From the NCBI GenBank assembly GCA_027067855.1, contig JAMOUX010000020.1:1-34157 (forward strand): 34,157 bases of DNA, read 5' to 3'. Position 1 is the first letter of the stretch. Each line of letters begins with the position of its first letter. The stretch comes from Candidatus Fermentibacteraceae bacterium. GTDB taxonomy: Bacteria; Fermentibacterota; Fermentibacteria; Fermentibacterales; JCC-6. Both the position numbers and the translations under genes were made by a program. A model generated the notes under the pieces. It was not told the origin of the DNA and did no database searches. It was given only the letters and a program-made list of their open reading frames with translations. Positions 5,153-31,299 of this stretch are shown one piece after another.

Positions 5153-8100
5153 ATGGAAAAGAAGATGATAACCATCGACGGTAACGAAGCCACCGCCAGG
5201 ATAGGCCATAAGCTGAGCGAAGTGGTGGCCATCTATCCCATAACCCCTTCCAGTCCCATGGGAGAACATGCCGACGCATGGTCCGCCCAGGGCAAGACCA
5301 ATATCTGGGGTTCGGTACCGCTGGTACAGGAGATGCAGAGCGAGGGAGGAGCCGCGGCCGCGGTACACGGAGCGCTTCAAACCGGGGCGCTAACCACCAC
5401 GTTCACCGCTTCTCAGGGATTACTCCTCATGATTCCCTCGATGTACAAGATAGCGGCCGAACTCACCCCCGCCGTCTTCCACGTTTCGGCCAGGAGCCTG
5501 GCATGCCAGGCCCTGTCCATATTCGGCGATCACAGCGATGTCATGGGCGTAAGGCAGACGGGTTTCGCCCTCATGGCCAGCGCATCGGTCCAGGAGGCCA
5601 TGGACCTGGCCGTGGTGGCTCACGCTTCCACTCTAAAGGCCAGAGTACCCTTCGTACATTTCTTCGACGGTTTCAGGACCAGCCACGAGATACAGAAAAT
5701 AGAGCTTGTTCCCGACGAGGTGCTGAGGAAGATGATGGACGACGAACTGGTCATCGCGGCCAGGAACCGCGGGCTCGACCCCAACCGTCCGGTGGTGCGG
5801 GGTACCAGTCAGAACCCCGACGTCTACTTCCAGGGCAGGGAGACCGTGAACCCATATTACATGGCTACCCCGGGAATCGTCCAGGATTACATGGACAAGT
5901 TCGCCGAACTCACCGGCAGGCGTTACCGGCTCTTCGACTACGTGGGCGCTCCCGACGCCGAAACCGTGGTGATACTCATGGCCTCGGGGTGCGAAACCGC
6001 CCACGAGACCGTGGAATACCTCGTCGACAGGGGTGAGAAGGTGGGTCTCGTGAAGGTCAGACTCTACAGGCCCTTCCATGCGGACTCGCTTCTCGCGGCG
6101 ATTCCGAACACCGTCAAGAACATCGTGGTCCTGGACAGGACCAAGGAACCGGGAAGCACCGGCGAACCGCTCTACCTCGACGTGATATCGGCTCTTTACG
6201 AAAACGGCAGGAGCGACGTAAGGGTCATCGGCGGAAGGTATGGCCTTTCGAGCAAGGAATTCATTCCGGCCATGGTCAAGAGAGTCCTGGAAGAAGCCGC
6301 TACGGAAAAACCCAGGAACCACTTCACCATCGGTATCACCGACGACGTCACCCACACTTCTCTCGATGTGGACGACTTCGACATCGAACTCCCCGGAACC
6401 ATTCAGGCGGTCTTCATCGGCCTCGGCTCGGACGGAACCGTGGGCGCGAACAAGAACAGTATAAAGATCATCGGGGAAGAGACGGACAACTACGCCCAGG
6501 GATACTTCGTTTACGATTCCAAGAAAGCGGGAGCCAGGACCGTCAGTCACCTCCGCTTCGGCTCCAGGCCCATCAAGCAGACCTGCCTGATACGCAAAGC
6601 CGATTTCGTGGGATGCCACCAGTTCATCTTCCTGGAGAAGTACGACGTTCTGGGTTACGCCGCCGACGGCGCCACTTTCCTTCTCAACGCTCCCTACCAC
6701 AAGGACGAGGTCTGGGACAGGCTTCCAGCCAAGGTACAGGAGGCCATAATCCGCAAGAAGGTGAAATTCTACGTCATCGACGCTTACGAAGTGGCCAGGA
6801 AAACCGGTATGGGCGTGAGGATAAATACTATCATGCAGACCTGCTTCTTCGCCATCTCGGGCGTCCTGCCCAGGGACGAGGCCATCGCCAAGATCAAGGA
6901 GGCCATCAAGAAGACCTACGGCAGGAAAGGTGAGGACGTGGTAAGGAAGAACTACGAGGCCGTGGATCACGCCCTGGCCAACCTTCACCGGGTGGATTAC
7001 CCCGACAGGGTCACCAGCGATATACCCATCCCGCCGGTGGTACCCGAGGCGGCGCCCGACTTCGTGAAGAGGGTGACCGCCAAGATAATCGCTATGGAAG
7101 GAGACGACATCCCGGTTTCCGACATGCCGGCCGACGGCAGCTGGCCCACCGGCACGACCCAGTGGGAAAAGCGCAACGTGGCCCTGGAGATACCCGTGTG
7201 GGATCCGGAAACCTGCATACAGTGCGGCTTCTGCAGCCTCGTGTGCCCACATGCCGCCATAAGGATGAAGGTATACGACGGGAAGCACCTGGAACTCGCC
7301 CCGGAGACTTTCAAACACGCCGAGGCCCGGGGGGCGAAATTCAAGGGTATGAAGTTCACCATCCAGGTGGCCCCCGAGGACTGCACGGGATGCGGAACCT
7401 GCGTACACGTCTGCCCCGCCAAGAACAGGGAGAATACCGCCTTGAAGGCGATAAACATGCACGAGCAGATGCCCCTGAGAGAGAAGGAGAGAGAGAACTA
7501 CGCCTTCTTCCTCGGCATACCCGACTACGACAGGACCGCCGTAAACCCGATGAACGTCAAGGAAACGCAACTGCTCCGCCCTCTCTTCGAATATTCCGGA
7601 GCCTGCGCGGGATGCGGAGAAACCGCCTACGTCAAACTTCTCACCCAGCTTTTCGGCGACAGGGCGGTCATAGCCAACGCCACGGGTTGCAGTTCCATCT
7701 ACGGAGGCAACCTTCCCACCACTCCCTACACCTTCGACGATCATGGCAGGGGACCGGCATGGAACAACAGCCTCTTCGAGGACGCCGCGGAGTTCGGTTT
7801 CGGTTTCAGGCTCACCGCGGACAAGCATATCCAGGTGGCCGTGGAACTCCTGAAGAAGCTCGCTCCCAGGCTTGGCGACAACCTGGTCCGGGAACTTCTC
7901 GAGGCTTCACAGGATACCGAGGCGGACATCGCCAGGCAGCGGGAGAGGGTTTCGCTGCTTCGGGGAAAACTGGCGGAGATAGACGAACCGGACGCCAGGC
8001 TGCTTGAAAGCGTGGCCGATTACCTCGTCCACAGGAGCGTATGGATACTGGGCGGCGACGGCTGGGCCTATGACATCGGTTACGGCGGGCTGGATCATGT

Positions 8101-13334: not shown

Positions 13335-13674
13335 GTTTTTACCGCCGGAGTTCGGTTATCGTATATGGAACAATGCATACACGCACGATGTTTTGCAAAA
13401 TCCGCAATTCACCGGTGCACCCCTCAACTTCTTATCAGTTTCAACCATACCCCGATTAAATATAATCTTCATAACATCCATATACCGGGGGTTAGGTTAA
13501 TAAGCCCGGCAATGCTGATCACTCACCCTACTTGATTTTTGCTTGCCGGGAAGCCACTTGACAGGGATCTGCAGGGGTAAATAGTGTAAGAAAAATCGAG
13601 TAATAACCTATTACGGCACGGGGAAAGATTCGCTTTTATCCGCAGTACCGTTAGACAACAAAGGAGGAAGCGAT
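13335..13674. other. Intergenic border between core and accessory DNA
   Basis: This 340-bp gap holds no convincing protein gene. A sharp fall in GC starts here. An imperfect inverted repeat is formed by CCCGGCAA at 13505-13512 and TTGCCGGG at 13543-13550, with 30 nt between the arms. A TATAAT at 13461-13466 lacks a good -35. The TTGACA promoter for the peptide locus is listed separately. The last 90 nt would be the 5' leader of that transcript. I recognise no known riboswitch in it. Confidence 0.5.
13558..13587 (+). promoter_or_regulatory. Candidate promoter of the peptide/radical SAM locus
   Basis: A perfect TTGACA at 13558-13563 is followed after 18 bp by TAGTGT at 13582-13587, which matches the -10 consensus at only three positions (the first two and the last). 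It lies about 90 nt upstream of the first small ORF and points toward it. The -35 is strong and the -10 weak, which would fit an activated or regulated promoter. Confidence 0.45.
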
Positions 13675-13725
13675 ATGTCAAGAGATTCGCCTCTGAACAA
13701 ACGTGTCCTTGCTCATGATTTTTAA
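13675..13725 (+). CDS. 16-residue peptide with strong ribosome site
   Basis: A very short ORF reading MSRDSPLNKRVLAHDF. It is preceded by AAGGAGG (13661-13667) with exactly 7 nt to the ATG, the best ribosome binding site in this part of the window. It ends 25 nt before the start of the cysteine-rich peptide. It could be a leader peptide controlling the operon, a second small peptide product or a translational primer for the next gene. It contains no cysteine and matches no family I know. The ribosome site is direct evidence; the function is unknown. Confidence 0.45.
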   Translation: MSRDSPLNKRVLAHDF

Positions 13726-13750
13726 TCAACTCTCTTGAAGGAGAAGCATA

Positions 13751-13945
13751 ATGCCCAAAGATAAAGGTACACACGGAACCGACAAAAAAGAGATGAGCAA
13801 GTTGACGCCTGATAAGGTCATCAACATCAACGAGGGAATCCAGAGCCTTCTGGATCCGCAAGCTGCCGAGAATCTCGACCAACTTCGGAAACAGATGATT
13901 TCTTGTTGCCTGCAGGCATGTGATTGCTGCTTGCAGATAAGCTGA
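13751..13945 (+). CDS. Candidate RiPP precursor with five-cysteine core
   Basis: A 64-residue peptide with a charged, cysteine-free amino-terminal part and a carboxy-terminal tail containing all five cysteines (52, 53, 57, 59, 60). The tail is built as SCCLQ-ACD-CCLQIS, an internal CCLQ repeat around a central Cys. The likely leader, about residues 1-49, has a hydrophobic/acidic segment (VININEGIQSLLDP). GAAGGAG at 13737-13743 lies 7 nt before the ATG. A SPASM radical SAM gene begins 75 nt downstream, past a hairpin. This is the classic layout of a radical-SAM-modified peptide (thioether-linked sactipeptide or ranthipeptide type, or a Geobacter 'geopeptide'-like class). The modification is inferred, not visible. 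Confidence 0.7.
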   Translation: MPKDKGTHGTDKKEMSKLTPDKVININEGIQSLLDPQAAENLDQLRKQMISCCLQACDCCLQIS

Positions 13946-13956
13946 AAACATGATGA

Positions 13957-13984
13957 GATGGCTGCCGGTTCACCGGCAGCCATC
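13957..13984 (+). promoter_or_regulatory. Hairpin between peptide and maturase genes
   Basis: A perfect inverted repeat: 12 bp of stem (13957-13968 pairing with 13973-13984) closed by a TTCA loop, beginning 11 nt after the precursor stop codon. No T-run follows, so full intrinsic termination is unlikely. In RiPP operons such structures typically stabilise the precursor message or reduce read-through into the enzyme gene, giving more peptide than enzyme. Confidence 0.75.
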
Positions 13985-14020
13985 CTGATTAATAAAATAA
14001 ACTCTCGGAGAAAATGATAT

Positions 14021-15430
14021 ATGTATGTTAGTAAGTATAATTTGTTTATAGATCTTGGTGAATATCCGGATTTGTCGATAATTCAGAATATTTTTCATGG
14101 CCAGTCAACGGTCGTTCCGAAAAGCCTGGCCGACTACTTGAAGAATGCCGCCCCTTCCGGCGACCTATCAGATCTACCTGATGCCATGCTTTCCTTGTTA
14201 AAGAAAAAAGGATTCATATATGATGTAAAAAAAGATGAAGATAAACAGATCGAAACAATCTATTCCCAATTCAGGAAAACATTACCCAAAGCCAATCCTT
14301 CCCGTCAATATCAACTAATTCTTACATATGACTGTAATCTTCGTTGCATCTATTGTTTCCAGAAAAAAATACGTAAGACAACCGACAATGCCGTAATAAG
14401 CGAAACACAGCTTAAAGACATATTCGACATCATACTCACCAAGGAAAGGGCTAATGAGGAGGAAATAAAACAAAAGGAACTCCCGACGCGTGTTCCTCTA
14501 ATTTCAATAGCGGGAGGAGAACCACTGCTTGATACGCCAGAATCCAAAAAAACGATTAGCAACATAATTCATTTCGCGAAACAGAATAATTTCCATTATT
14601 CCATAACTACAAACGGAGTTTTCCTGGATAAGTACATCCCGATATTCAAGTCCGCCGGATATTATCCAAGGGATATACAGGTAACGATTGATGGAACAAA
14701 AGAATATCACGATCGGCGCAGAATCGGGGTTGGAGGCGCCGGTTCATTTGATTCCATAGTGCAAAGCATCGATTCCATTCTTGAAGAAGGCATGCATATC
14801 AGCCTGCGTATTAATGTTGATGAAATGAATACTTCATCAATAAACAAAATAGCCGATTATATTCTTGCCAAGCAATGGACCGGTTACGATGAATTCTCTG
14901 CGTACCTGGCTCCGGTGACCGATCACAGCTCCGTCAATAAAAACTATAAATGGTTGAAGCAGGATGCCGGCCTGATCAGGGAGATAATGCGAATGTTCGC
15001 GGAGCGGCCTGAATTGGAAAGTATATTCACGATGAAGAATTTTCGTGGATTTCAGTATGTGAAACGAATAGTAGAGAAAAAAGAAAAGGCCGTACCTACC
15101 ATATGGCGTTGCGAAGCTGTGCTGGGACAATTGGTATTCGATCCGCAAGGTGATTTATATACATGCTTTGAAGGCGCCGGAAATGAATCCGCGAGAATAG
15201 GTACATACAGCCCTTCCTATGAAATAGATGCGCAGCGAGATCGGGAATGGAAAAGTCTGAATGCCATCGAAAATAAATATTGTCGCCGGTGCAGCTATCG
15301 ATTCGTATGCTCCGGGGGTTGTCCGTGGCATATCGTAGGACAACAGGCAACGGAGTGTCTGCCTGTCGAAGAAGAAATACGACTGGCCTGGAATTACTAT
15401 GCTCCAAGAGTTCTGGGATCATTGGCATAA
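14021..15430 (+). CDS. Radical SAM/SPASM peptide maturase
   Basis: A 469-residue radical SAM enzyme. Residues 1-95 form a non-catalytic domain containing a helix-rich segment and LLKKKGFIYD, similar to the substrate-recognition regions that precede many peptide maturases. The SAM-binding cluster motif is DCNLRCIYC (Cys 105, 109, 112), followed by the glycine-rich SIAGGEPLL. The SPASM domain for auxiliary iron-sulfur clusters has seven cysteines at about 364, 382, 421, 424, 430, 434 and 446 in the classical C..GxxxxC..CX2CX5CX3C..C order. Such enzymes install thioether or carbon-carbon crosslinks in small peptides. The adjacent Cys-rich peptide is the obvious substrate. GGAG lies 10 nt upstream of the ATG. 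GC is much lower than in the chromosomal genes. Confidence 0.88.
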   Translation: MYVSKYNLFIDLGEYPDLSIIQNIFHGQSTVVPKSLADYLKNAAPSGDLSDLPDAMLSLLKKKGFIYDVKKDEDKQIETIYSQFRKTLPKANPSRQYQLILTYDCNLRCIYCFQKKIRKTTDNAVISETQLKDIFDIILTKERANEEEIKQKELPTRVPLISIAGGEPLLDTPESKKTISNIIHFAKQNNFHYSITTNGVFLDKYIPIFKSAGYYPRDIQVTIDGTKEYHDRRRIGVGGAGSFDSIVQSIDSILEEGMHISLRINVDEMNTSSINKIADYILAKQWTGYDEFSAYLAPVTDHSSVNKNYKWLKQDAGLIREIMRMFAERPELESIFTMKNFRGFQYVKRIVEKKEKAVPTIWRCEAVLGQLVFDPQGDLYTCFEGAGNESARIGTYSPSYEIDAQRDREWKSLNAIENKYCRRCSYRFVCSGGCPWHIVGQQATECLPVEEEIRLAWNYYAPRVLGSLA

Positions 15431-15678: not shown

Positions 15679-16617
15679 ATGAAAAGTCTTATACAAAGAG
15701 CATTGACTGCCAAACGTGAGTCGAAATACATCGATTTCAAGAGCGAACTTGATTTCTCTAAGCCCCATTCGTGGTGCGAAATCATCAAGGATATAATAGC
15801 AATGGCAAACTCCGGTGGCGGGGTCATAGTTATAGGATCGGATAATAAGGGAAAACCGACTGGATTCGATCCCACATCGCTTCTTGATACAGACGAAGCC
15901 GTGATGACTGATCGTATCGGAAAGTATACAGGGGTCCAGTTCGACGGATTCACAATTTCGGAACATACGAAAGCAGGAAATCGCCTTGTATTGATTCTTG
16001 TTGAGGGAGTTACAATTCCGATCGTTTTCGTGAAACCCGGAACATATGCGGTTAGTGATAAAAAACAGAAAACAGCATTTTCGGCCGGTACCGTCTACTT
16101 TCGTCATGGATCGAAAAGTGAACCGGGAAATAGGGATGATCTTCGAAAATTCATCGAAAGAAGACTTGAAGCAATCAGAAAATCGTGGTTGCAGGGCGTA
16201 CGAAAGGTTGTGAAGGCTCCCCCCGGAAGCCGAATTTATACATTCCCGCCGGGAGTGGAAGTACGAGAGTCCGCCTCATCAGATGCTAAGGCTGTCAGGA
16301 TAGTAGATGATCCTGACGCTCCTGCATATAGAAACCTTGATTACGATTCGACACATCCGTTTCGGCAAAAAGAGGCACTTAAGGAAATTAATCGTATCCT
16401 TGATGAACGCGCTACAATAAACTCTTATGACATACAATGCATAAATCGTGTTTACGGAATACGGAACAAGGATAATTTTTGCCATCGGCCCAAGTATTCC
16501 TCACCCCAGTATTCACAAGAGTACGTATCTTGGGTGATCGATCAATACGAGCGGAATAAGGAATTTTTCATAGAAACCAGAAAAATCGACCGTGCGCGAC
16601 GAGATAAAAACCGATGA
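15679..16617 (+). CDS. AlbA_2 (Schlafen-type) domain protein
   Basis: A 312-residue protein whose first half is an AlbA_2/Schlafen-like domain: the acidic-lysine start YIDFKSELDF, the helix DIIAMANSGGG, then VIVIGSDNKGKPTGFD and a later YFRHGSKSEP strand (about residue 145). This domain is often called a putative DNA- or nucleotide-binding ATPase and is common in transcription regulators and anti-phage proteins. The second half (about 160-312) lacks the ATPase carboxy-terminal domains of classic regulators. It contains a helical region with CINRVYGIRNKDNFCHRP and a basic tail that I do not recognise. It stands alone between AT-rich spacers, 105 nt before a nuclease-like gene in the same direction. 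Confidence 0.75.
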   Translation: MKSLIQRALTAKRESKYIDFKSELDFSKPHSWCEIIKDIIAMANSGGGVIVIGSDNKGKPTGFDPTSLLDTDEAVMTDRIGKYTGVQFDGFTISEHTKAGNRLVLILVEGVTIPIVFVKPGTYAVSDKKQKTAFSAGTVYFRHGSKSEPGNRDDLRKFIERRLEAIRKSWLQGVRKVVKAPPGSRIYTFPPGVEVRESASSDAKAVRIVDDPDAPAYRNLDYDSTHPFRQKEALKEINRILDERATINSYDIQCINRVYGIRNKDNFCHRPKYSSPQYSQEYVSWVIDQYERNKEFFIETRKIDRARRDKNR

Positions 16618-17733: not shown

Positions 17734-18051
17734 CGGAAGCGGTCGAATCGCCCATTGCTATGCGGAAGCCGCCGAACCACTCGTTGCGGCCAACCTTATA
17801 ATCAAACTTTTCATTCACTTCCGCCCGATAAAACAATGAAAAATCTCCGGCGGGAGCCTGATCAGTCGGAGTACGCAGCACCGGACCGGGGGTCGATCGG
17901 TTCGACAAAAATCCCCAAGCCGACCGGTGACATCCTTCCTGTCGAACCGGAGGATATGTATTATCGTCGGCAGGAGGAAGCACCGGCAAGGACGGCCGCT
18001 CTCACGCAGCCGACTTGCCGGAAATACCCGGGATCCGAGGAGTTGTTGGTA
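17734..18051 (+). other. Spacer or possible N-terminal extension of the M50-like gene
   Basis: About 320 bp without an independent gene. The reading frame of the following membrane protein stays open from 17755, and an ATG at 17836 would add a 72-residue hydrophilic, proline-rich extension. That ATG has no ribosome site, whereas the one at 18052 does. The stretch is therefore more likely untranslated or vestigial. Confidence 0.45.
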
Positions 18052-18840
18052 ATGAAGTACCGTAAACCGGGTTTTTGGTATTTGATTCCCGCATGCCTGC
18101 TGATAGGCTATCTTGGTGCCCAAAAAGTACACGAAACCGGCCACTGGGCGGTTCTACAGGCCTTTCGACGGGAACCGGTCATGGGCTTTACGGGGCTGGT
18201 TCAGCTCTGGGACGTATCGCCTGCAAACCCGAACGAGTGGACGGAATACACCGACCCTCTTGATGGCGGGAAAGGCTGGTTACACCTGACTTCACTTCCC
18301 CAAAGCCCGGTGGAATGGGTTGGCATGCTTGCCGCAGGTCAAATTGCGAATCTTCTTGCCGTAGTGCTGGGATTGCTTATCGCGTATAATGGTAAATATC
18401 CTTCAAGAGAAATGGGATTGATACTGGTACTGGTCAATTCACTCGGGCAGGCCTTGTACCATTTACGGAACCTGTTCCGGCCAGCGGGTGGCGATGAGTA
18501 CTTCATAGCATCCTATCTAAAAACATCAAAAGAGTGGATAACGGTTCCTTTACTGCTGATCTATATCGCCGCCACAATTCTTGCCATCCGTCAGATCGAG
18601 GAATGGCGGGAGCGCTGGAAATTTATGGGAGCGGCGTTTCTAAGCAGCCTTGCGCTTGGACCTGCCCTGATGATAGCGGACAAGGTTGTCCGTAATCAAA
18701 TAAACCTGGACAATCCTTTGTTTCAGCCGGTATGGGGATTTTCCATTCCTGTATTAATAGTTGATGCGGCGGCATTCATTGGACTCCGGCTTTGGGTAAA
18801 AAGAGTAAGAAGGATAAAAGAAACCCTCCAAGCCGGCTAA
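18052..18840 (+). CDS. Membrane HExxH protein, M50 peptidase-like
   Basis: A 262-residue integral membrane protein with about six hydrophobic segments. The first (about residues 8-25) runs straight into KVHETGHWAVLQ, a zinc-metalloprotease HExxH motif placed at a membrane boundary as in M50 (site-2-type) peptidases. A later PAGGDEYFIASYL segment has the GGD that many HExGH membrane proteins carry as a third-ligand loop. The start at 18052 has GAGGAG about 10 nt upstream. It might process a membrane or peptide substrate, possibly the upstream cysteine-rich peptide, but two unrelated genes lie between them. It could also be a non-proteolytic relative. Confidence 0.6.
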   Translation: MKYRKPGFWYLIPACLLIGYLGAQKVHETGHWAVLQAFRREPVMGFTGLVQLWDVSPANPNEWTEYTDPLDGGKGWLHLTSLPQSPVEWVGMLAAGQIANLLAVVLGLLIAYNGKYPSREMGLILVLVNSLGQALYHLRNLFRPAGGDEYFIASYLKTSKEWITVPLLLIYIAATILAIRQIEEWRERWKFMGAAFLSSLALGPALMIADKVVRNQINLDNPLFQPVWGFSIPVLIVDAAAFIGLRLWVKRVRRIKETLQAG

Positions 18841-20319: not shown

Positions 20320-21744
20320 CTACATAAAATATCGGTAATCATAGACTTCATTGACTATATCCGGTGTTAACTTGACCACATCGGCAAAGACCTGTGAGTA
20401 AACAAGCGTAACCGGAAGCGTCTTATAAAGTGTGTTGTTGTTCCAGTCCATCTTCGTAAGGGCGAGAACGCTCGAACATGTATCGTGCCATCCACCTTCT
20501 CCAGAAAAACGGCGAAGCATAATTGGAGATGGAAGTGGTTTAAGCGCTGCCTCCTTAAATACCGGCTGATTTACTCTTTGCGGGTTAACATTCATCACAC
20601 TGCCTTGCGTCCAAAGCAGACATTCTGAGTCTGTTAGAGGCTGATAAAGGCCACGATCAACCGGATAACTCGAAGGAGCGGGTTTATTTATTTGGCTACG
20701 CGGGCCATCGACTTTCAGACCGTACCAGTTTGTATTCCGTATGATCTGAACTAGCTCAACCTCCGTGTTGTTACCAAAGGCATCAAATGCCCCTTGTATT
20801 TCGTCTTCCTTAAAATGCGTTGTCTTATGAACAAATATCTTGCGCGGTACCCGTCCGTTGTGACTGTTTTGATAAAGATGGAGGCATTTGGACAATACGG
20901 ACTGCATCTCCTGGTAGCTGAGATATGGGTTACCTTTTCGGTCTGTTATAAATTCTCGTGTATCGTAGGCAACAAACTCAAAGCCAGTTCCGTCCGGGTC
21001 GAATACCTGACTACAGCAGGTCGTGTAGTCATGACCGTCCTTGTGTTTCTTGATAGCGTAACTCAAACCGATGTATGCTTCGTCTTTATCCCAATCAGCA
21101 AGCTTCCATGGAATGCCTCCCGCCTTAGCATAGAGCGCAACGCTTATTCCCCACATCACATTTGCACGGCAGTTCCGTGTAAAGGCAATATCGTTGAGAA
21201 TCTGGATGGGCAAATTGAGCGGTGCGACCTTTGACTTTATCCGGTCGTGCAGGTTGAATCCTTCATATTCAAAGCACTTTTTCCACCTTGCGGGTAAAAA
21301 TACGAGTAGTACGTCGAACGCATGCCTTTGTCCGAGCAATCCAGATATGGACTGAAATATCGTGCCTGCAAGAGCAAACCCATCACCCGATGCGGCCATG
21401 CTATTGCATTCTGGAGACATGCCACATTTAATAGCGTTCCCAGGCGCAACAAGGGGAACACGGAACACTTTCTGGAAACCTTCATACTTTATGTAATAGT
21501 TTAGCGCCTCTCTTGGCATGGCGCTCTGCTGAAGTTCGGTCACAATGCTATCCAATTTAGATAGATATTCAGCTGGGGCGAGATAGGCGAGCCTGACCTG
21601 ACCGGGAAGACCGATCCTGGCACTATAGGGACCGTGCTGCGCGAGGCCTTGGAGCGGATGCGTGTTAGTCTGACCTCCCTGAAACAAAAGTCGTGGTTCA
21701 GGCAGGATACAATGCGCGGGAAGGATTGAAGTATCAGTGACCAT
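20320..21744 (-). CDS. Short prokaryotic Argonaute (MID-PIWI), inactive type
   Basis: A 474-residue protein with the MID and PIWI domains of short pAgos and no PAZ domain. The MID region shows [17 protein letters not shown] followed by K and LPIQILND, the 5'-phosphate pocket pattern. The PIWI start reads AYIGLSYAI, where active Argonautes have the first catalytic Asp, so it should bind guide and target without slicing. The protein ends in the DYRYFM-type terminus common in this group. The gene overlaps SIR2-APAZ by 11 nt; ATGs at 21744 and 21750 are both possible, and GGAG favours 21744. Known homologues load RNA guides, sense invading DNA and switch on the partner's NADase. Confidence 0.9.
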
Positions 21745-23509
21745 TACCATCTCCACGGCGGCTGTAAGCCGTACGGGTTCCGACCTCAAAATCCGCACTG
21801 TAGTTTACATCCGGGAAACAGGAGACCTTTATAGCCGCCCCCGACCCGACAGAACCAAGTAAAATTCTTATCCAGGCATCCAGCAGCAAATAGGACTTAC
21901 TGTTGTATCGTTTTAGTCGCCGTTGACGCATAAAATCCCGTGCTTCCTTTCGTTTGGCGAGCGGTTTTATCCAGATCTCTGGCCTGAGCATTACCCAAAG
22001 CCTTCCGTTGCGCTCTTCGAGCCGAATCGACACGGCTTCTGCCCAGGTCACATCCTGAAGGCCCGGCACATTACCGGTGATTGCCGGATTGTTGTTGAAC
22101 CCCAGTGCTTTCCGTAAGCCCCTGAAAAGTTTGTTTTTAGCAGCATCGTACCGTACGACTGCATAGTACGTCCTATTCTTACGCCGGAGAAAGAGGGGTT
22201 TATCCCTGCAGAGGGCCCTGGCAAGTGCTTCCCCAAAAAATGATTTCATAATGGTGGAATCAGATACTGCTTGTACCGTATTGTCGAAGTCAAAGGGCTG
22301 AATGGATCTGATGTTATCCTTTGGCAGAACCTTTACAATCTCTTTTTCATCCCCCCAGAAAAGAACCTTGTCCGTATACGTCAGAATCGCGTTTGGCGAC
22401 TTTTTGATCATTTTTGCCTTCAGGTCAGCAAACGTCATTGTATTCGTCAAGTCGACGGTGCCACAACGAGCTGGTGAAGCGAGCACGGGTAAGGCATTTG
22501 TGCGCAATATTGGGAACTGTTTACCAGGAGCAGGAAGTGGAATAGAAACGCTCCTAACTCGGGCTGTTCTCACCCTATCATCAAGGGATTGAGACTTACC
22601 ATCTATCTGACGCCATATTTTGGAGAGCATTTCGTCGAAAGTTCCAGTTTCAACGAGATAAGCTTGCACGCCCCTATTTCGTGCATATTTGATAAGCTCC
22701 AGCACATTCCCAGCCGTCCGAGGGAATTTCGTAACTGTCCAGAAAAGGCCATGCGGGAATGCGTTATTTTGGTCGATAGCCTCACGAAACATGGACATGA
22801 CGTTTTCATCACGTCCGCTATACCCGGTCACGACCAGCCCGAACCGTGCCCCTGCGGCAATAAAGCATTTCTGAATTTCACGGTCATTGCTGAGCAAGTC
22901 CGCTTCCAGGTTCTTGATACTCTGATAGCGAAAATCGCCATGGATTTTAGAGTATATTGGAAAACGCTCTGCATTCAGCGCATCCAAAGCAGCGTATGAC
23001 CCTTCCAGATTAAAAGTTGACAAGTTATTGCCACTAACATTCGCATAGGCTGTTTCGATTACGTCGTCAAAATTCGTAGTAAAGATAATCCTTGCCTGCC
23101 CCATCGCAAGCAAGGCCGCCAGAGCACGGTGGCCTATATTCAAGGAGACTTTGTCACTTGCGAGAGCCTCATTAATATACTTTTGCTGCGCAGCTAGGTC
23201 ACCGCCAAAGGTCAGATCAAAATAGAAAGAGTATTCTTCCGAACTCCACAAGGCTGGGAATCCTTTACTCTCCATGTACGCCTGTATTTTCTGTTTTATG
23301 GCGTTGTTGTTGATATCATGAGACTGCAGGTCCTGATTTTCATGCAGGCAATAATAGCGGCGTTTCAGATCCCATATGATATCAGCCGCAGTCGGAAGCC
23401 CCGCGGATCTCGATGTGCCCGCGCCAAGGAACCACATTATGTGCGGGGCATTCTGCAAGTAATGCCGAAAAAACTCATTTTCTGACATTATGGATACTTG
23501 GTCACTCAT
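21734..23509 (-). CDS. SIR2-APAZ effector of a short-Argonaute (SPARSA) system
   Basis: A 591-residue effector. Residues about 25-260 are a SIR2 NADase domain: [18 protein letters not shown] (nucleotide binding), [12 protein letters not shown], the catalytic histidine in [10 protein letters not shown], and [12 protein letters not shown]. Residues about 330-591 form the APAZ region that replaces the amino-terminal and PAZ lobes of long Argonautes and docks the short pAgo encoded next. In characterised SPARSA systems, guide-directed target recognition makes the SIR2 domain degrade NAD+, killing or arresting the infected cell. The start overlaps the hsdS stop as ATGA and also has GGGGAG upstream, so it may be both coupled and independently initiated. 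Confidence 0.92.
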
Positions 23510-24706
23510 GCTTGAAGCTCCCCGTTCATCAAGCGTGGTAGCAGGAGGTCGCGGGCTGATTTCAGTTGAAATATTAAGCGCTTCAGACAGCGTACCTGTT
23601 GAATTATGTCGCGAGAAAACCTTGAAAACTCGCGAATAATGGACCTTGGGGGGAGGACAATTTCCATCTGCCGAAATCGACCTTTGCTTATTTCGGGATA
23701 AGTGGTGCCTTTTGCATTGCTACGAATTTCGGTTACTCTACTCATAAGATTGAACAGAAGGTACATACACAAATCATCTTCATGGGGAATAATATTGATA
23801 AATCCCTGATTTGTGCAAACCTCAATGTCCATCAATGCAAAATATCCTACTGATGCACGGCTTGTCATAAGAATAGTCTCTGCTGGAACCATTTTAGCGG
23901 ACGATTCTCTAAGACCTTTCTCCGTAATTTTACGTTCAGAGTCAAGGAGTACTAAACAGTCGTTTTTTGTGACATCCGATGGGACAACCCATGTAATATC
24001 CCCGCCCCAATATTCTGAAACTTTGGTTGAAGGTGTGCCGCCACCAACCGTTTCACAGATGTCTGCCATTTTTTTCCTCTCCCACCCTTCCGGCACGCCG
24101 CCTTTGATCTTGATGTGTTCATGGCCGGGGAAGCGGAGGTGGACGAACCATTCCTTGTAGAGCTGCTGCGCTGCCTGCTCCAGCAACTGAATCCGCCGCC
24201 GGTTGTTTTCGATGAGGTCGTCGTATACGGAGAGGATGGAGGCAATGCGTTGTTGCCGGAGCAAATCGAAATCAGGTATTTCACCACGGAGGATAGTATC
24301 TGTATCCACTGCGGGATAAGATGTCCACTTAGTATTGTTGGTGAGATACCCGGTAAATAGTCTATCAGTTACTGTATAATAATAGATAAAATAGGGACCT
24401 ACATTCTCTTTGGCCCTGAGAACAGCAAATTTCGTTGATGCAACTGTGTTAACAGGGGGTTCCTTAATAAAAAGAAACGAACGTAAGTTGGGGTGAACCG
24501 TAGCGAGAATAATATCCCTACCCCGAACAATCTTTTTAGCTCGACTAGGGGCTTCATTTAACAAAAGTCGCTTTGGCCTTTCAACAAAATAACCTGAGGC
24601 AACTGATGATATCTATATACAATATTTTATCATAGTGGTAGGCCTTCATAATACCTTCAGGATTTATATCCACGAAATTTGCGAGAAGTGTGATCCTATC
24701 GCCCAT
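23506..24706 (-). pseudogene. hsdS: Type I restriction specificity subunit hsdS with one frameshift
   Basis: A nearly complete HsdS broken once. The minus strand starts at 24706 (ATG after GGAG) with MGDRITLLANFVDINPEG and YHYDKILYIDI, then hits a frame change at about 24608-24615 inside an AT-rich TATATAGATATC run. The other frame continues SSVASGYFVERPKRLLL and on through TRD1, a central helix (VYDDLIENNRRRIQLLEQAA), TRD2 (from about KGGVPEGWERK) and the terminal helix [13 protein letters not shown]. Restoring two bases would give a normal 400-residue protein. HsdS provides DNA-sequence specificity to HsdM/HsdR. As it stands only a protein from an internal start could be made. Its stop overlaps the SIR2-APAZ start. 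Confidence 0.85.
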
Positions 24707-25808
24707 ATTCCCAACTCCATTGAAAAATTCAAAGAGTGAAGGGTGAAGTTTGAAACCGCTCTCCCAAGGCCTTTCTCACCCTTCAAATTTCCAGCTTCAC
24801 TATTCTTCATCCGTTGCCTCCTTTCTGGCCAACCCGCTTTGATCTCCTCTATGCTCGGCAGGCTGCCTTTCAGGTCGTCGGGGAGGGTTTCGGTGAGCCC
24901 GGTTTCGCAGTCAGCCACGCCGATGGGTTTGGAAAAACCCCGCAGGGCGTATTCGGCCATGATCCGATTTTTCCCCTTGCAATAGCAACAGGCCGATGGC
25001 GGGTTTGTCGTCCGGGTGATGCATCAGGTCGTCCACGGCGGAAAGATAGAAATTTAACTGCCCCACAAAGGCGAAGCCGGCCCCAAGTTCCAGCAGGAAT
25101 TTCTGAATGTGATCCACCAGAGCCTGTTCAACCTCCCGCTCCCGGCGTGGGTCGGCAGTGCCGAGAAAGTCGAACAGGTATGGGTCCTTGAACACATGGG
25201 CCGCCATGTTGGAATCCGAGGGAGGCAAGGCAAGCTCAAAATTGTTGATCGCCTTGCCTTCACGTTTGTGGAGGCCGGATTCAATCTGCATCACCAGTAT
25301 ATTGCGGCTACAGCCGTTTTCAGCGGCTTTGGCGGCGTACCACAGACGTGTTTCCGGACCCGGGCATTTTTCAAGAAGGGCCAGGTTGGTTCGCCAGGGA
25401 ATTTGTGCAACGGTGCGTTGCACTATTTCACGATTTGGCCACGCCTGGGCGAACTTGCGCACGTATTTGAGGTTCCGTGTAGACAGGCCGTTCATGTCAG
25501 GAAAAGCTTCCTTGAGGTCGTGCGACAGTCTATCGATGACCTTTGCGCCCCACCCCTCCCTTGTCTGACGATCAAGGATGGTCTTGCCGATGTCCCAATA
25601 CATCAATACCATAGCCACGTTGGCCGCATGATCACCCGCAACCGCTCTGAACGAATGCGTTCTCTGATTTCAGCCAGAAGCGTCCCATAACCTTCCGGCA
25701 ACTCTTTCTTTCCCGGAGAACCGGCATCGACGCCCCTTTGCATGCCCGTCCCCTGAACTTTCGCAGTTTGTCGTTCCGGGCGGGAGAGGGTTGTCGTCTC
25801 TTTTTCAT
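24664..25808 (-). pseudogene. YhcG/DUF1016 PDDEXK nuclease pseudogene
   Basis: A DUF1016 (YhcG-type) gene read in several frames. An ATG at 25808 overlaps the hsdM stop as ATGA and begins MKKRRQPSPARND. The family's PEGYGTLLAEIRERIRS lies in a second frame, and NVAMVLMYWDIGKTIL through ELALPPSDSN, HVFKDPYLFDFLG and ELGAGFAFVGQ in a third. At that point the nuclease core (the expected DLLFYHLxLRCxVVxELK region) is missing and the text resumes with LNFYLSAVDDLMHHPDDKP. A last frame change leads to AEYALRGFSKPIGV and LPDDLKGSLPSIEEI. The protein cannot be functional because the PDDEXK centre is gone. YhcG genes are often inserted between hsdM and hsdS, as here. Confidence 0.85.
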
Positions 25809-26065
25809 ACCCCCAACTCCTCAAAGTTTTTCTTGATCTTAGCAGCCAGTTTCATCGTTTCGGAATTCAGGTCTCCTAGCTCAACATGGATATCCCACAA
25901 TGCTCCTTCGAAATCGAAGTCGTCGTCTTTTTCCTCGGGTGCGAAGCCAACATAACGGCCGTGGGTCAGACTCCAGTCATTAGCCTTGATTTCGACACGG
26001 TCTACGAGTTTGACTAGATCCTTCACATCGCGGAGCTTTGCCTTGGGGAAGCGCTCAGTTAACCA
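25805..26065 (-). pseudogene. hsdM: hsdM 3' fragment (DNA methyltransferase C-terminus)
   Basis: The last 86 codons of a type I restriction methyltransferase: WLTERFPKAKLRDVKDLVKL, then NDWSLTHGRYVGFAPEEKDD, FDFEGALWDIHVELGDLN and an ending NFEELGV. The pattern SLTxGRYVGxAPEE is characteristic of HsdM carboxy termini. A stop codon lies immediately upstream of the Trp codon (26066-26068), and the SAM-binding and NPPF parts are absent, so the gene was cut at about 26066. It differs from the intact hsdM at the right edge of the window. Confidence 0.8.
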
Positions 26066-26378
26066 TCAAACCTGACGGTGGAAATAGCGCAGCTGCTTGA
26101 GCTGGGTGACGGCCAGCTGCCGGAATTTGTTCCTGGGTAAAACATCGTACAGGTTTATCGTAGTCTGCCTCAATGGTTTCCATGGCTTGGACTGGGTAGT
26201 CTTGCCGTTTTCCCACTGTTTTATAGTGGCAAGCAAAGTTCACTCCCAGATTTCATGGGCCAGCTTTCCCTGGCTATTCCCAAATACATTTCTGTCTCTT
26301 ATCCAGAAATGAACAAAAGTGATATAATAGGTAGCATATCAGGTGAGAGTGGAAACCACAAACGTCAAAGCTGTGGGT
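26066..26378. other. Unassigned DNA at the broken end of hsdM
   Basis: No reliable gene. The minus strand has a fragment reading TIKQWENGKTTQ and, farther on, FRQLAVTQLKQLRYFHRQ ending at 26066. The QWENGK part recalls helix-turn-helix antitoxins, but the match is too short to name. On the plus strand an extended -10 (TGATATAAT, 26320-26328) has no gene behind it. Confidence 0.3.
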
Positions 26379-26886
26379 TTATGCAACCTTTCTTCCATAA
26401 ATTCTTGACGTCGGATTGATCTCCTTCACGGTCATGTACTTTCTTCCGGTCTCCCACCTGTCGCCAGTCTTCACCAGCAAGGCCGTAACCGGCCTGAGCA
26501 GCGCCGCTTCGTTATGCAAGGGCCTGCAGTCCACCCCTCAGCCTTTTTCCGAGTTTCCTGTCGTATCTTTCGAGCATCTTGGACGTACCAATATGCCTGC
26601 ACTCGCTTTTCGCCGGACGATAAACGACGAAGTCTTCCTCAAACTTATTTTCCAGCCAGCTTGACAGCTTGGGTACCGTCTTCCCGTACTTCCCGATCAC
26701 GATCTCCGGACGGCTCCCTAGTCTCATCCACATCCCTCGACCCAGGCACTGTACAAATGTCCTCTCGGTCACATCCTTCCGCATCTCCTTTCGGGGTGCG
26801 TAGCCTGGCATTCCTCTGCAAATGCACATGGCAGCGGTTCCATCACCTCGGGAAAATGTCTTATCGTCCATTTGTGAGATGATCAT
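26379..26886 (-). pseudogene. IS256-family (Mutator) transposase fragment
   Basis: The carboxy-terminal half of an IS256-type transposase spread over frames. RCHVHLQRNA in one frame is the family's W-xRCxxHxxRN block. PRKEMRKDVTERT and WLENKFEEDF with CRHIGTSKMLERYDRKLGKRL follow in a second frame. Near 26,515 the frame changes again to NEAALLRPVTALLV and WETGRKYMT, the family's normal ending. At least two frameshifts and loss of the amino-terminal half make it non-functional. Confidence 0.75.
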
Positions 26887-27343
26887 GTGATCTCTTCGTC
26901 AGGACTTGCTGTTTGAAGAAATATGGATCATACTAGGAAGCTGTCGATCAGACAGACTCAGAATTTACAGAAGCAATGATGCATAACCAAAGTTGTGACT
27001 ATTTGTGAGCAAAACAGGAAGCTAGATTGGTAACTGAAAGTCAGAAGTGTCTTTTGCCAAAGGCCCGGCCGGAATAACTTTTCAGGTATTTTTCAAAAAC
27101 CAGGATTCGTCTGAGTTGCTCATAATGATCCAAACATAGTGAGAACCCATCAGATATTTCAGGCTTCATTCTACGGTACCTTTCCGAAGCGAAGGCTGGT
27201 GGAGGGCTGGCCGCCTTCCAGAAATCCAGTCTCCCCAGCGCCAACACATCAAAACCCTTTATTTACAATGCCTTGAGAGCTTCTAAGTGCCGTTCGACCC
27301 GGCCCTACGCGGGAAATGTTTTTCTCCACATTTTCCACAAGCA
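26887..27343. other. Unassigned DNA right of the IS256 remnant
   Basis: About 460 bp without a gene I can support. A minus-strand ORF at 27041-27247 (67 residues, containing SDGFSLCLDHYEQLRRIL) has no recognisable motif or clear ribosome site. Confidence 0.3.
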
Positions 27344-27378
27344 GAGAATGGACGTGGGTTCGATTCCCACTGCCATAT
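27344..27378 (+). other. tRNA/tmRNA-like T-arm fragment, possible att relic
   Basis: GTGGG at 27354-27358, a TTCGATT loop and CCCAC at 27366-27370 form a perfect T-arm. It is preceded by GGAC as in tmRNA 3' ends (GGACGxGGGTTCGATTCCC) and followed by TGCCATATCA. No matching 5' acceptor, D-arm or anticodon arm lies in the preceding 80 nt, so it is not an intact tRNA. A bare 3' fragment is what the distal end of an element integrated in a tRNA or tmRNA gene leaves. No integrase or second copy is in the window. Confidence 0.45.
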
Positions 27379-27415
27379 CAAACGCGGTGATGTCATAACT
27401 CGGGCCTGAAATCTC

Positions 27416-28447
27416 TTATTCAGATTCTTCATCTTTTTGTTCCAGTTGTTTGATCACCCGATCAAAGTCACTCTCAAACAACCGGTCCTGCACGATTCGG
27501 TATTTTTCAAATTCGCTCTCGGCATACGCCCTGGCCAGCTTTGCCGTCACCTTGCCGGCATCGCGCAGAATTTCACGATCGTCAAATTCCAGAAACATAT
27601 CCAGGCGTTTGGCCCAATCTTCCATGGTCATGGGGATTTTTCGCTTGGCCCGCTCCTCGGCCAGATCCAGGTAGGCATTGACAATCCGTCCCAGTGACTC
27701 CAGTTCATCCCTGGTCAGATAATTTTTGGCAACCGAGACATCGGATTGCAGAATTTTGCCGTCCGGAGCCTTTTCCCAGGTGGTCAGCCCCATGTTTGGT
27801 TTCGAGGCGTTCGCGCGACTTGCGATCAGTTCAGCTGCGGTCTGCCCATGAATCGCATAGTGCAGTTTATTCTGCACCTTGGCAAAAAACGCCCTGGTGG
27901 TCGGGGCATCCTTATTGTAATCGATACTGGTGGCGTAAATATCGGTGATTTTCTGATAAAAACGGCGTTCACTGAGACGGATCTCGCGGATTTCTGCCAG
28001 CAACCGTTCAAAATAATCTTCACCAAGAAAGGCGCCGTTTTCCATGCGCTTTCTGTCCAGCACATAGCCTTTGATGGCAAACTCCCGCAAAACCCGGGTA
28101 GCCCACTGGCGGAACTCGGTGGCGCGGATGGAGTTGACCCGGTACCCCACGGATATGATTGCGTCGAGATTGTAATGTTTGGCCGTGTAGGTCTTGCCAT
28201 CCGAGGCAGTTATTCGGAATTTCCTAATAACTGAATCCGGGGCCAATTCGCCGCTGGCGAATATATTCTTCAGGTGCTCGTTAATGGTTGGAATGCTTAC
28301 ACCGAAAAGTTCCGCCATCAGCTTTTGAGACAGCCAGATGGTCTCATCTTCATACCGTGCTTCGATGGACTGTTCCCCCGCCTGGCCGGTAAAAATAAGG
28401 AATTCTGCGGTGGAATTTCTGATCAGTTGGTTTTTCTTATCACTCAT
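27416..28447 (-). CDS. RhuM-family protein
   Basis: A 343-residue protein of the RhuM family, often annotated as virulence protein but found widely beside restriction systems and in islands. Visible family features are the amino-terminal TIWLSQKLMAELFGVSIP helix-turn-helix-like region, then NIFASGEL, the KHYNLDAIISVGYRVNS segment and FRQWATRVLREF (about residues 112-123), followed by a helical carboxy-terminal half with a FARAKLHYAIHG-like stretch (FAKVQNKLHYAIHG). No enzymatic motif is known. It is the last gene of the restriction operon, starting 15 nt after the HNH gene. DNA binding is a plausible role from the amino-terminal region but is not proven. Confidence 0.85.
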   Translation of the reverse strand: MSDKKNQLIRNSTAEFLIFTGQAGEQSIEARYEDETIWLSQKLMAELFGVSIPTINEHLKNIFASGELAPDSVIRKFRITASDGKTYTAKHYNLDAIISVGYRVNSIRATEFRQWATRVLREFAIKGYVLDRKRMENGAFLGEDYFERLLAEIREIRLSERRFYQKITDIYATSIDYNKDAPTTRAFFAKVQNKLHYAIHGQTAAELIASRANASKPNMGLTTWEKAPDGKILQSDVSVAKNYLTRDELESLGRIVNAYLDLAEERAKRKIPMTMEDWAKRLDMFLEFDDREILRDAGKVTAKLARAYAESEFEKYRIVQDRLFESDFDRVIKQLEQKDEESE

Positions 28448-28462
28448 AGGATTTCTCCAACA

Positions 28463-29560
28463 TCAAGCTTCCTCCGCTATTACATTAAAAAGACCTATTC
28501 GACTGCATCCCTCAAGGAAAGCTGTTTTCAAAAAATTGCTATCTGCAAAAGGGTACTTGTCTGTCTGTCTGATCAACGTTGCCAGATAATCAGCAGGAGT
28601 CCGTCCATCTTCATGCCATTCATCAAGCACCTGTGCCACCCAGTATTTTCCATCGCTTTCACCGCAACATTTGGCTTTGTAGCGCTTTTCAATGCCGTAT
28701 ATGTCTTTCCAAGTTTCGATCTCTTCGTTCAGCTTTTCCGGACCGAATCCAATATCAAGATCATCGGGCTCAAGATGATCTATATCCGATTTCTTGAGCC
28801 TAATCTCAATTTCAATCTTATGGCCGGGATTGGCATAGGGATAAAAAACTTTCCGGCGGAGCATGCCTCCTGTCGGGTCCTTGGGTGTGAATGCGGGATC
28901 TTTACTGGTTTTGTAGCTGCTGTTGCAATGATGACAAGCGGGAACGAGGTTGTGGAAATTGATTGAGTTGAATGGGTAGAGCGCCTTGGGAAGATAGTGG
29001 TCGTAGGCTTCCCGTTTTGTGTGATAAATTCCCTGCATATCCGTGATGCCGCAAAATGGACATTTGCCTACGGTATTGGCCCGCATAAAATTGTTATAGT
29101 GGTCGTCGATATTGCAAATCTTTTCTTTAAGCGCCTTAAGGCCCAGAAGCTCGCTTGAATACAATCCCTTGAAGAAGGCGGCGAGTTCTTTGCCCAATTC
29201 CGGGTGTGCAGGCAGAACATCAGCATAGCGGGCGATGTGGAGTGCCGGATTATTGGCGCAAATTCCCTTGATGTCGTTATTGGCCTGATACCATCGCTTA
29301 AACTGAGCAATTTCAGGCCGAGCCAATCGAGCGAAGAGGTTATAGATCCGTTCGACACTGCCATAGAAGAAATCCCCACCCTTGGTGTCACTATAAAAAA
29401 ATGCTGTCATCACCTCTTTGAGGTTCGGATTGGCATCAAAAAGAGCCAAGTTGAAAACTCCACACTTCGGAGCACGACACCACACCTGATAGAAGATGAA
29501 ATTAATAAAATTTTGCATCTTCTCCATCTGATGGGGAACATATTGATACGAAAACAGCAT
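28463..29560 (-). CDS. HNH endonuclease, restriction-operon associated (PtuB-like)
   Basis: A 365-residue protein with a zinc-stabilised HNH nuclease domain in the middle: KCPFCGI (about residue 190), YDHYLPKALYPF with the catalytic histidine, then NFHNLVPACHHCNSSYKT (about 225-242). The amino-terminal 180 residues and the last 120 are helical and probably contact the ATPase partner. The start overlaps the ATPase stop by one base (TGATG), so the two are translated together. An ATPase plus HNH pair is the composition of the anti-phage Septu system (PtuA/PtuB). This protein is longer than typical PtuB proteins, so the name marks a resemblance only. Confidence 0.8.
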   Translation of the reverse strand: MLFSYQYVPHQMEKMQNFINFIFYQVWCRAPKCGVFNLALFDANPNLKEVMTAFFYSDTKGGDFFYGSVERIYNLFARLARPEIAQFKRWYQANNDIKGICANNPALHIARYADVLPAHPELGKELAAFFKGLYSSELLGLKALKEKICNIDDHYNNFMRANTVGKCPFCGITDMQGIYHTKREAYDHYLPKALYPFNSINFHNLVPACHHCNSSYKTSKDPAFTPKDPTGGMLRRKVFYPYANPGHKIEIEIRLKKSDIDHLEPDDLDIGFGPEKLNEEIETWKDIYGIEKRYKAKCCGESDGKYWVAQVLDEWHEDGRTPADYLATLIRQTDKYPFADSNFLKTAFLEGCSRIGLFNVIAEEA

Positions 29561-31299
29561 CAGTCCTGCTCCTCCATACTGTCCATAATGGATTTAATCA
29601 GCAGAACCTTTTCCACCGAATCGCCCAGTTTCCGGTTGATTTCTTCAATGAGTTTTTCTTTATCTTCCCCGTCCTCGAAACGCTTACGCAGATCCTCAAG
29701 AATCTTTTGTGCATGACCGCCAATGGTTTCACGTTTGCCGAAAGTGTTCATGGTGATCTTGTTGATGGACGCGCCCAGGGTGTTGTATTCAGGCGTGGTG
29801 ACCGTCACAACGCCATCCGCCTTTTTGAACACCAGCACCTTGTCGGGTTTACTGTCGGAAATAAGAAACGGCGTATGGGTGGTAACCAGCATTTCGTGGC
29901 TGTCATCCGAGCCTTTGAAACATTGGTGCAGACGGGTGACAAAGTTTGAACGCCAGTCAGGATTAAAATGAGTTTCCGGCTCATCGAGCAGAAACAGACT
30001 GTTGGTGTTTTTAAAGAGCAAACACAGTCCCAGGCTGTGCAAGAGCTGATGTTCACCATCGGAAAGGGATTTCAGCAGAACAGGCGTTTCTGTGTCCGTT
30101 TTCCTGATCCAGAAATTCTTGATGCGCATTATTCGCTGATCCGAGGCCAGGGTTGGAACCGTTTCGGTTACATACAGGCTGTCGGAATGGTACAGATCAC
30201 TCTTCAGGGTATCGCTTACCGAGTAAAGGTTGAGGGTCAGGAGCACCTGAAGGGCCTGAAAGAGGACAACGGGAGATTGGTCAAAATTTTCCCTGAACGC
30301 CTCTTTTGTCACTTCATCGACAAAATAGTCGAGATAAAGCGTGTCGGTGGATTCATCATCAAAGAAACAGGTGGCACAGCGTTTGAGGCGGGTGACAATG
30401 GGATCGAAGTTGTCAGCGGAACTCTTGTCCGCTTCAAGCGGTTTCATCAGATTGACACGGTAAGTTCCAGTTTCTGCATCCCTGCTCAGCGCCTGATTAT
30501 CAGTGCCAAAACCCTCAGCCACCTCTGCGGAAACCTCGATGCTGCGTTTAATGATAATGCGAAACTCTTTCAGCTTCTCAATTCCCACATCTTTGCGGAA
30601 TGGTTTCAGGGTGTCATCGTCCTGAAACAGCAAATTACAGAGCAGAATCGCCTGACTGAAACCGCTGTCCAGATAGGCCAGCCGGCTTTCCGGCCTGCCC
30701 GGATAGGAAAGTTGGTTCTTAAGCGCATGCCAGTATTCATCAAACTGGATAAAGCGCATCTTGAAGAAAGGCAGGCTCAGTATTTCGTTTTCACCGGATG
30801 AGTAGCCCAGTACATACTCGGGCAAGAGAAAATCCCGCTCCCGTTCGGAAATGGCATCCGGGTTATCGGATTTAAAATCGGCCTGATTGAGCCAGGTCAG
30901 TTGGGGAGACTGACCGATCTCTTTAATGATTTTGACTTTGGCAAATTCAGGTGACCCCGAATTGCGAAACTCATCCGGTACCCGAATAAGATATTCCAGT
31001 TCAAAACCGTTGGGACTGCCATCACCGTTTTTAAAGCCATGTGGGTTGTCTTCTTCATCAAAAAGAAAACTCTCCGGCAGGAAACTGCGGCGTACCCGCA
31101 ATACTTCCAGTTGAAAAAAGATCGCCGCTAGTGCCTCCAGCAGATTGGACTTGCCGCTGCCATTGGGACCGGCACAGACAAAGGAGGCAAAGCCATCGTC
31201 CTGTTGCAACGCCCACTCTGTACGGAAATGGTGCTCAAAACCCGCTTGCAGACTGCGGAATCTATTGGGATCGGTGATTTTGAGACGCAGCAGTTTCAC
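29560..31299 (-). CDS. Restriction-system-associated AAA ATPase (PtuA-like)
   Basis: A 579-residue RecF/OLD-like ABC-type ATPase. Walker A is CAGPNGSGKSNLLEAL (about residue 44-59). An LSDGEHQLLHSLGL signature lies near 420 and Walker B SLFLLDEPETHFNPDW near 440, with the following VTTHTPFLISDS switch histidine. The middle part lacks a long coiled coil or a TOPRIM domain, so it is not an OLD nuclease. The carboxy-terminal helices (about 520-579) may bind the HNH protein. It overlaps hsdS upstream by 4 nt and the HNH gene downstream by 1 nt. Such ATPases are regularly seen inside type I restriction operons and probably license the nuclease on sensing foreign DNA, an inference from Septu. Confidence 0.85.
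   Translation of the reverse strand: MKLLRLKITDPNRFRSLQAGFEHHFRTEWALQQDDGFASFVCAGPNGSGKSNLLEALAAIFFQLEVLRVRRSFLPESFLFDEEDNPHGFKNGDGSPNGFELEYLIRVPDEFRNSGSPEFAKVKIIKEIGQSPQLTWLNQADFKSDNPDAISERERDFLLPEYVLGYSSGENEILSLPFFKMRFIQFDEYWHALKNQLSYPGRPESRLAYLDSGFSQAILLCNLLFQDDDTLKPFRKDVGIEKLKEFRIIIKRSIEVSAEVAEGFGTDNQALSRDAETGTYRVNLMKPLEADKSSADNFDPIVTRLKRCATCFFDDESTDTLYLDYFVDEVTKEAFRENFDQSPVVLFQALQVLLTLNLYSVSDTLKSDLYHSDSLYVTETVPTLASDQRIMRIKNFWIRKTDTETPVLLKSLSDGEHQLLHSLGLCLLFKNTNSLFLLDEPETHFNPDWRSNFVTRLHQCFKGSDDSHEMLVTTHTPFLISDSKPDKVLVFKKADGVVTVTTPEYNTLGASINKITMNTFGKRETIGGHAQKILEDLRKRFEDGEDKEKLIEEINRKLGDSVEKVLLIKSIMDSMEEQD

Follow-up and report, generated by a model that had tools for sequence, protein, structure and literature searches.

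A probable minimal RiPP cassette with a five-cysteine precursor and a radical SAM/SPASM maturase in a Candidatus Fermentibacteraceae bacterium

A contig of a Candidatus Fermentibacteraceae bacterium (JAMOUX010000020.1, positions 1 to 34,157; this whole stretch is called the window here) encodes a 64-residue peptide with five cysteines in its tail and, directly downstream, a predicted radical SAM/SPASM enzyme. We read the two genes as a minimal RiPP cassette of precursor and maturase that was probably gained by horizontal transfer and that branches deeply within a broader, unnamed group of maturases whose precursors have a CC core, and we hold this reading as a whole with good, though not full, confidence. 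A precursor/maturase pair had been proposed in the first-pass annotation; the integrity of the enzyme, its CteB-like predicted fold, the enrichment of CC-core open reading frames (ORFs) upstream of related maturases and the occurrence of five-cysteine peptides beside homologous maturases elsewhere all support this. Such a pairing is a known kind of RiPP system.

Upstream of the cassette, a consensus scan gave a weak candidate promoter (TTGACA-16-AATAGT, 10/12 consensus; 13558 to 13585, forward strand), with the number of sites not above that in shuffled sequence. The first small ORF (13675 to 13725, forward strand) encodes 16 aa, MSRDSPLNKRVLAHDF, and is preceded by a strong ribosome site, AAAGGAGG; it is a candidate leader ORF or second small peptide. 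The putative precursor gene (13751 to 13945, forward strand) has an AAGGAG ribosome site upstream, and both small ORFs with their ribosome sites are present as originally described. The leader would span about residues 1 to 50 and the core about MISCCLQACDCCLQIS, in which cysteines 52, 53, 57, 59 and 60 form the tail CCxxxCxCC. The claim that this tail is distinct from six-cysteine SCIFF peptides holds, with five cysteines counted and the cut-off of the SCIFF model missed. Within the core, a CCLQ unit is doubled (TGTTGCCTGCAG and TGCTGCTTGCAG; 13904 to 13936, forward strand), with copies at residues 52 to 55 and 59 to 62, an offset of seven residues. According to the codon listing, the DNA of the two copies differs at two bases (TGT/TGC and CTG/TTG), both synonymous, which fits selection acting on the protein. 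At least five cysteines within the last 14 residues were found in 10 of 9,876 ORFs of 25 to 110 aa from 923 kb of loci, and two of these 10 were the window ORF and its homologue in locus L049, both immediately 5' of a maturase; when random DNA matched in composition was scanned, such a tail occurred in 2 of 67,049 ORFs. The 64-aa peptide matched no family in NCBIfam or Pfam, and no match was found in plasmids or in the relatives searched.

Motifs, profiles, AlphaFold and Foldseek all led to the prediction that the following gene (14021 to 15430, forward strand) encodes a radical SAM/SPASM peptide maturase of 469 aa, with an RRE-like N-terminal domain (about residues 1 to 91), a radical SAM barrel (about 95 to 300) and a seven-cysteine SPASM region (about 360 to 450). 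The protein has the motifs CNLRCIYC (CxxxCxxC; C105, C109 and C112) and GGEP and the SPASM set C364-x17-C382-x38-C421-x2-C424-x5-C430-x3-C434-x11-C446. All three cluster cysteines and the full seven-cysteine set had been said to be retained, and indeed, no other cysteine than these ten was invariant across the 38 homologues aligned. Pfam recognized the radical SAM domain (PF04055, 55.7 bits, above the cut-off) and gave no match of its own to the SPASM domain. The best curated family was CefB (NF038107) with 153.5 bits over residues 1 to 435 against a cut-off of 600, yet the window cysteines do not stand at every fifth residue, as the name of this Cys-every-fifth maturase would have it. Also below their cut-offs were the second-best family, the Cys-rich target maturase TIGR04463 (136.8 bits; cut-off, 525), PapB (NF047865, 121.3 bits; cut-off, 340) and SCIFF/CteB (TIGR03974, 99.5 bits; cut-off, 425). 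With PapB/freyrasin the maturase shares a homologous catalytic region, whereas the window core has none of the Cys-x3-Asp (CxxxD) units. At the level of curated NCBIfam and Pfam families, neither cassette protein was assigned.

The AlphaFold model (pLDDT 90.6) has an intact fold in which a beta3-alpha domain at the N terminus is accompanied by the barrel and the SPASM region; residues 1 to 91 form three strands followed by helices, with a pLDDT of >90 in most blocks. With the whole model as query, the top PDB match in Foldseek was CteB (5wgg; E = 1.8e-18), followed by the anaerobic sulfatase-maturating enzyme and TigE, and a profile of the 38 maturases aligned with CteB across nearly its full length. 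The CteB/SCIFF ranthipeptide system (PDB 5wgg and 5why; TIGR03974) and the window pair have in common the radical SAM and seven-cysteine SPASM domains and an adjacent small Cys-rich precursor, and the N-terminal domain of the window enzyme may likewise be of the RRE type, but the SCIFF precursor has six cysteines rather than the five in the CC..C.CC arrangement of the window, and the two enzymes, although CteB is the best structural match, are only about 21% identical in the structural alignment.

Single-protein scans of 85k genomes and IMG/VR yielded no close relative, and an alignment scan of IMG/VR gave partial, generic matches only. Distant maturases with 25 to 33% identity were found in many phyla, at least 80 by alignment scan and more by genome searches; the nearest relative among the matches listed had 33% identity. 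In the maturase tree, the window enzyme is a long lone branch grouped with that of locus L058 and with the VAGCHD group (support, 89/84; not starred). When the 500 nt upstream of maturases were analyzed for 29 loci taken as the wider clade of the window, small ORFs with a CC core and a ribosome site numbered 12 in 14.5 kb, compared to 30 in 612 kb elsewhere, a background of 42 times more sequence (P = 1.3e-10). The cores with CC comprise CCWN and CCFQ (L049), CCFN and CCFQ (L171), CCWN (L048), CCWW (L059), CCWF and CCWY (L066), CCLN (L063) and CCAK (L087); CCLQ of the window, in a peptide directly upstream of its maturase, fits this set. On the maturase tree, the CC label requires 6 changes. 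Precursors of L059, L063, L066, L087, L074, L077 and others start with MK[SA]L, often with D.[LI]W, whereas the window peptide begins with MPKDKG and is without the MKSL/LW leader motif found in most related precursors. No publication that pairs CC-core precursors with such maturases turned up in literature searches. Of the 22 previously unreported pathways described in PMC9062424, Asp-Cys clusters 59 and 115 come nearest in spirit.

A large peptide group, AQCC[AS]K...GCH[DN], was found in 19 loci. Its highly conserved pattern, MK[SA][LVI]...AQCC[AS]K.[ST]..V.GCH[DN], occurs beside a maturase of its own clade in L050, L051, L060, L072, L073, L074, L075, L076, L077 and L080 and also in L084, L088, L090, L091, L092, L065, L114, L117 and L126, a few kilobases from the maturase in L084 and L092. 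Where the neighbors were checked (Bacteroidota, Spirochaetota, Myxococcota and Bacillota), they included a methyltransferase resembling ArsM and a fusion of thioredoxin with thioredoxin reductase. Neither the peptide nor those of its maturases that were tested are named by any curated family. The peptides are possibly RiPPs with a link to arsenic or redox processes, and the family appears more striking than the locus of the window. In L058 of Theionarchaea, which holds the nearest maturase relative of the window among the matches listed, a precursor candidate made of repeated nine-residue CALEVQPTF units (5744 to 5971) lies ahead of a tandem pair of maturases and an MFS transporter. CCW-type peptides adjoin an M56 (BlaR1-like) peptidase in L048 (3063 to 4849), L059 (3954 to 5586) and L066 (25 to 898), and L048, as probably also L059, has a BlaI-type repressor; this arrangement suggests a signal-controlled RiPP.

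CteB forms thioethers, and its auxiliary cluster is able to bind a substrate cysteine (PMC8326336). Since the window maturase resembles CteB, we propose, by analogy only, that it probably makes thioether-type cross-links on the CC units of the peptide. The leader would be bound by the RRE-like N-terminal domain, and the radical SAM cluster would generate a 5'-deoxyadenosyl radical, by which hydrogen would be abstracted from residues of the core; the auxiliary SPASM clusters would hold a cysteine thiolate, leading to carbon-sulfur (thioether) links on the CC units. If the enzyme behaves like those of the CteB type, each bridge would cost 2 Da. Export and leader removal would be carried out by machinery encoded away from the cassette. 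Going further, and quite tentatively, one may see the window and the related loci as one broad RiPP class with a Cys-Cys core (CC-hydrophobic-N/Q/K/aromatic) in Paenibacillus-like bacteria, Actinomycetota, Spirochaetota, Bacteroidota, Myxococcota and Theionarchaea, whose maturases would make an undescribed type of bond, for example, one linking vicinal cysteines, and of which one branch would be tied to arsenic methylation.

If the two genes are a RiPP pair, the modification could also be other than a thioether: carbon-carbon cross-links might be formed, or the core might serve as a vicinal-dithiol ligand of a metal or metalloid after modification elsewhere in the peptide. Such a reading draws on a separate, starred clade of the same tree, in which peptides of the type MKSL...AQCCAK.S..VAGCHD lie beside ArsM-like methyltransferases and thioredoxin/thioredoxin-reductase fusions, and on the Trp-rich nature of several other cores (CCWFWGCCWYWG and CCWWISCWL). 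However, the window core contains no Trp, no arsenic gene is near the window cassette, and the fold and auxiliary-cluster cysteines are closest to those of the thioether synthase CteB; we therefore consider it unlikely for the window enzyme.

Five-cysteine precursors that end with CCFQI, like the CCLQI of the window peptide, were found in L049 and L172 (CINLCCWNCCFQI) and in L171 (CLQITCCFNICCFQI), each before a homologous maturase. They belong to three operons (L049, L171/L176 and L172/L177) in genomes G093 and G540, which are of one Paenibacillus-like genus, and in G735 of another family. To judge from sequence identity, the genus of G093 and G540 looks like Paenibacillus, since G489 (same genus, g61) and L063, which bears the name Paenibacillus, have identical precursors. 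These operons share with the window the five-cysteine core, the hairpin and the homologous maturase, but they carry two tandem maturases, behind which lie a membrane protease of the M50 type and an ABC ATPase, whereas the window has a single maturase. The M50-type protease of L049 and L176 is distant to the daptide protease family. In a comparison with nine peptides, the L171 peptide was the best match to the window peptide, with a score of 55 that was reached by 4 of 50,000 full shuffles and by 97 of 50,000 when the leader and the Cys tail were shuffled separately. The leader of the window peptide alone gave no significant match to L171. The shared tail is thus the main signal. A lack of conservation beside homologous maturases had been named at the outset as evidence against the locus, but at the motif level such conservation was found, both as the CC-core enrichment and as the five-cysteine CCFQI peptides.

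The peptide ORF might instead be a Cys-rich frame that arose by chance, and the maturase an orphan acting on another substrate; the lack of a near homologue of the peptide in the relatives and plasmids searched speaks for this reading. The rarity of the tail, the strong ribosome site, the position, the hairpin, the synonymous-only CCLQ differences and the five-cysteine counterparts beside homologous enzymes all speak against it, and we regard it as highly improbable.

Between the peptide and maturase genes lies the hairpin that had been noted in the cassette (13956 to 13985, forward strand), with a 13-bp stem, a UUCA loop and a stability of -27.3 kcal/mol. Its stability indeed exceeds that of shuffled sequences (z = -5.6), and none of 200 dinucleotide shuffles was equally stable. 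Strong hairpins 3' of the precursor gene were found in most homologous loci with a gap of at least 60 nt, including L171, L059, L063, L087, L077, L091, L075 and L080 (z-scores in homologous loci based on mononucleotide shuffles). They follow TAA, TAG or TGA alike and have no common sequence; a T-run lies downstream of the hairpin in L049 and L172. The window hairpin is probably an attenuator or an mRNA-processing site, and its recurrence after precursor genes points to attenuation or processing that would keep the peptide more abundant than the enzyme. Rfam gave no significant family and no SECIS match in the region. Since the host encodes a SelB (G000:C15:27796-29655; 324.7 bits versus a curated cut-off of 242.25) and the hairpin begins about 11 nt past the TGA after the core, we also weighed read-through of this TGA as selenocysteine, with the hairpin as SECIS and a longer peptide ending at the TGA at 14014 to 14016, just before the maturase start. 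This least probable of the readings was rejected because the hairpin recurs in the same place behind precursor genes ending with TAA or TAG (L171, L059, L063, L087 and L091); moreover, homologous peptides stop at or just past the equivalent residues (CCFQI* and CCFQINNA*), Rfam does not recognize a SECIS element, and a G, which is reported to be necessary in the loop of bacterial SECIS elements, is missing from the UUCA loop.

The AT-rich character ascribed to the cassette DNA was confirmed, with GC contents of 42% for the maturase and 48% for the peptide gene compared to 57 to 61% for asnS, nifJ and sbcD. In the genus, the family and the sampled phylum, no homologue of the maturase beyond the generic radical SAM level was found, and both cassette genes were absent from the other sampled genomes of the phylum. 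From the low GC content, the absence of both genes elsewhere in the sampled phylum and the setting next to a downstream defense-rich region, the cassette appears probably to have been acquired by horizontal transfer. The contig as such belongs to the genome, as asnS (AsnRS) is shared with most congeners at 69 to 77% identity. The neighbors had been described as core genes, which is right for asnS but not for sbcD, for which no match at E of ≤1e-60 was found among 18 congeners.

The defense-rich region 3' of the cassette includes SLFN/AlbA, SIR2 plus short Argonaute, DUF1016-like, AAA/HNH (PtuAB-like) and type I restriction genes. At 15679 to 16617 (forward strand), an SLFN/AlbA_2 domain is fused to an EC042_2821-like nuclease domain and weakly resembles the candidate defense family PDC-S19. 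A short Argonaute beside a SIR2-PNTD (APAZ-type) protein (20320 to 23509, reverse strand) forms a SPARSA-like defense pair (PADLOC, 623 and 666 bits). The defense island at 23506 to 34156 (reverse strand) holds two type I specificity subunits with a probable methyltransferase, as well as a PDC-S02/DUF1016-like protein and an AAA and HNH pair resembling PtuA/PtuB. A predicted membrane protein with an HETGH motif (17905 to 18840, forward strand), a possible metalloprotease, had no match in Pfam and did not occur in 41 further genomes of the phylum. As the protease of the cassette it was rejected: it has no significant likeness to the M50 protease of L049 (BLAST, E = 3.2), and two unrelated genes intervene. 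Next to the window pair, no transporter and no proven protease were found, and no gene was shown to be homologous to the proteases or the ABC ATPase of the related operons.

Radical SAM/SPASM maturases are a main source of new peptide chemistry, and the window locus offers a two-gene, readily expressed test case for a subfamily with paired-cysteine substrates that no curated model names. Since the five-cysteine pattern recurs next to homologous enzymes of an unrelated phylum, it offers a concrete candidate rule for the substrate. For the host, the presence of SelB means that the annotation of TGA codons in its genome needs care. The breadth of the CC-core set was unexpected, and if it is true that this set, the ArsM branch included, makes metal- or metalloid-binding peptides, the enzyme class would be tied to stress physiology.
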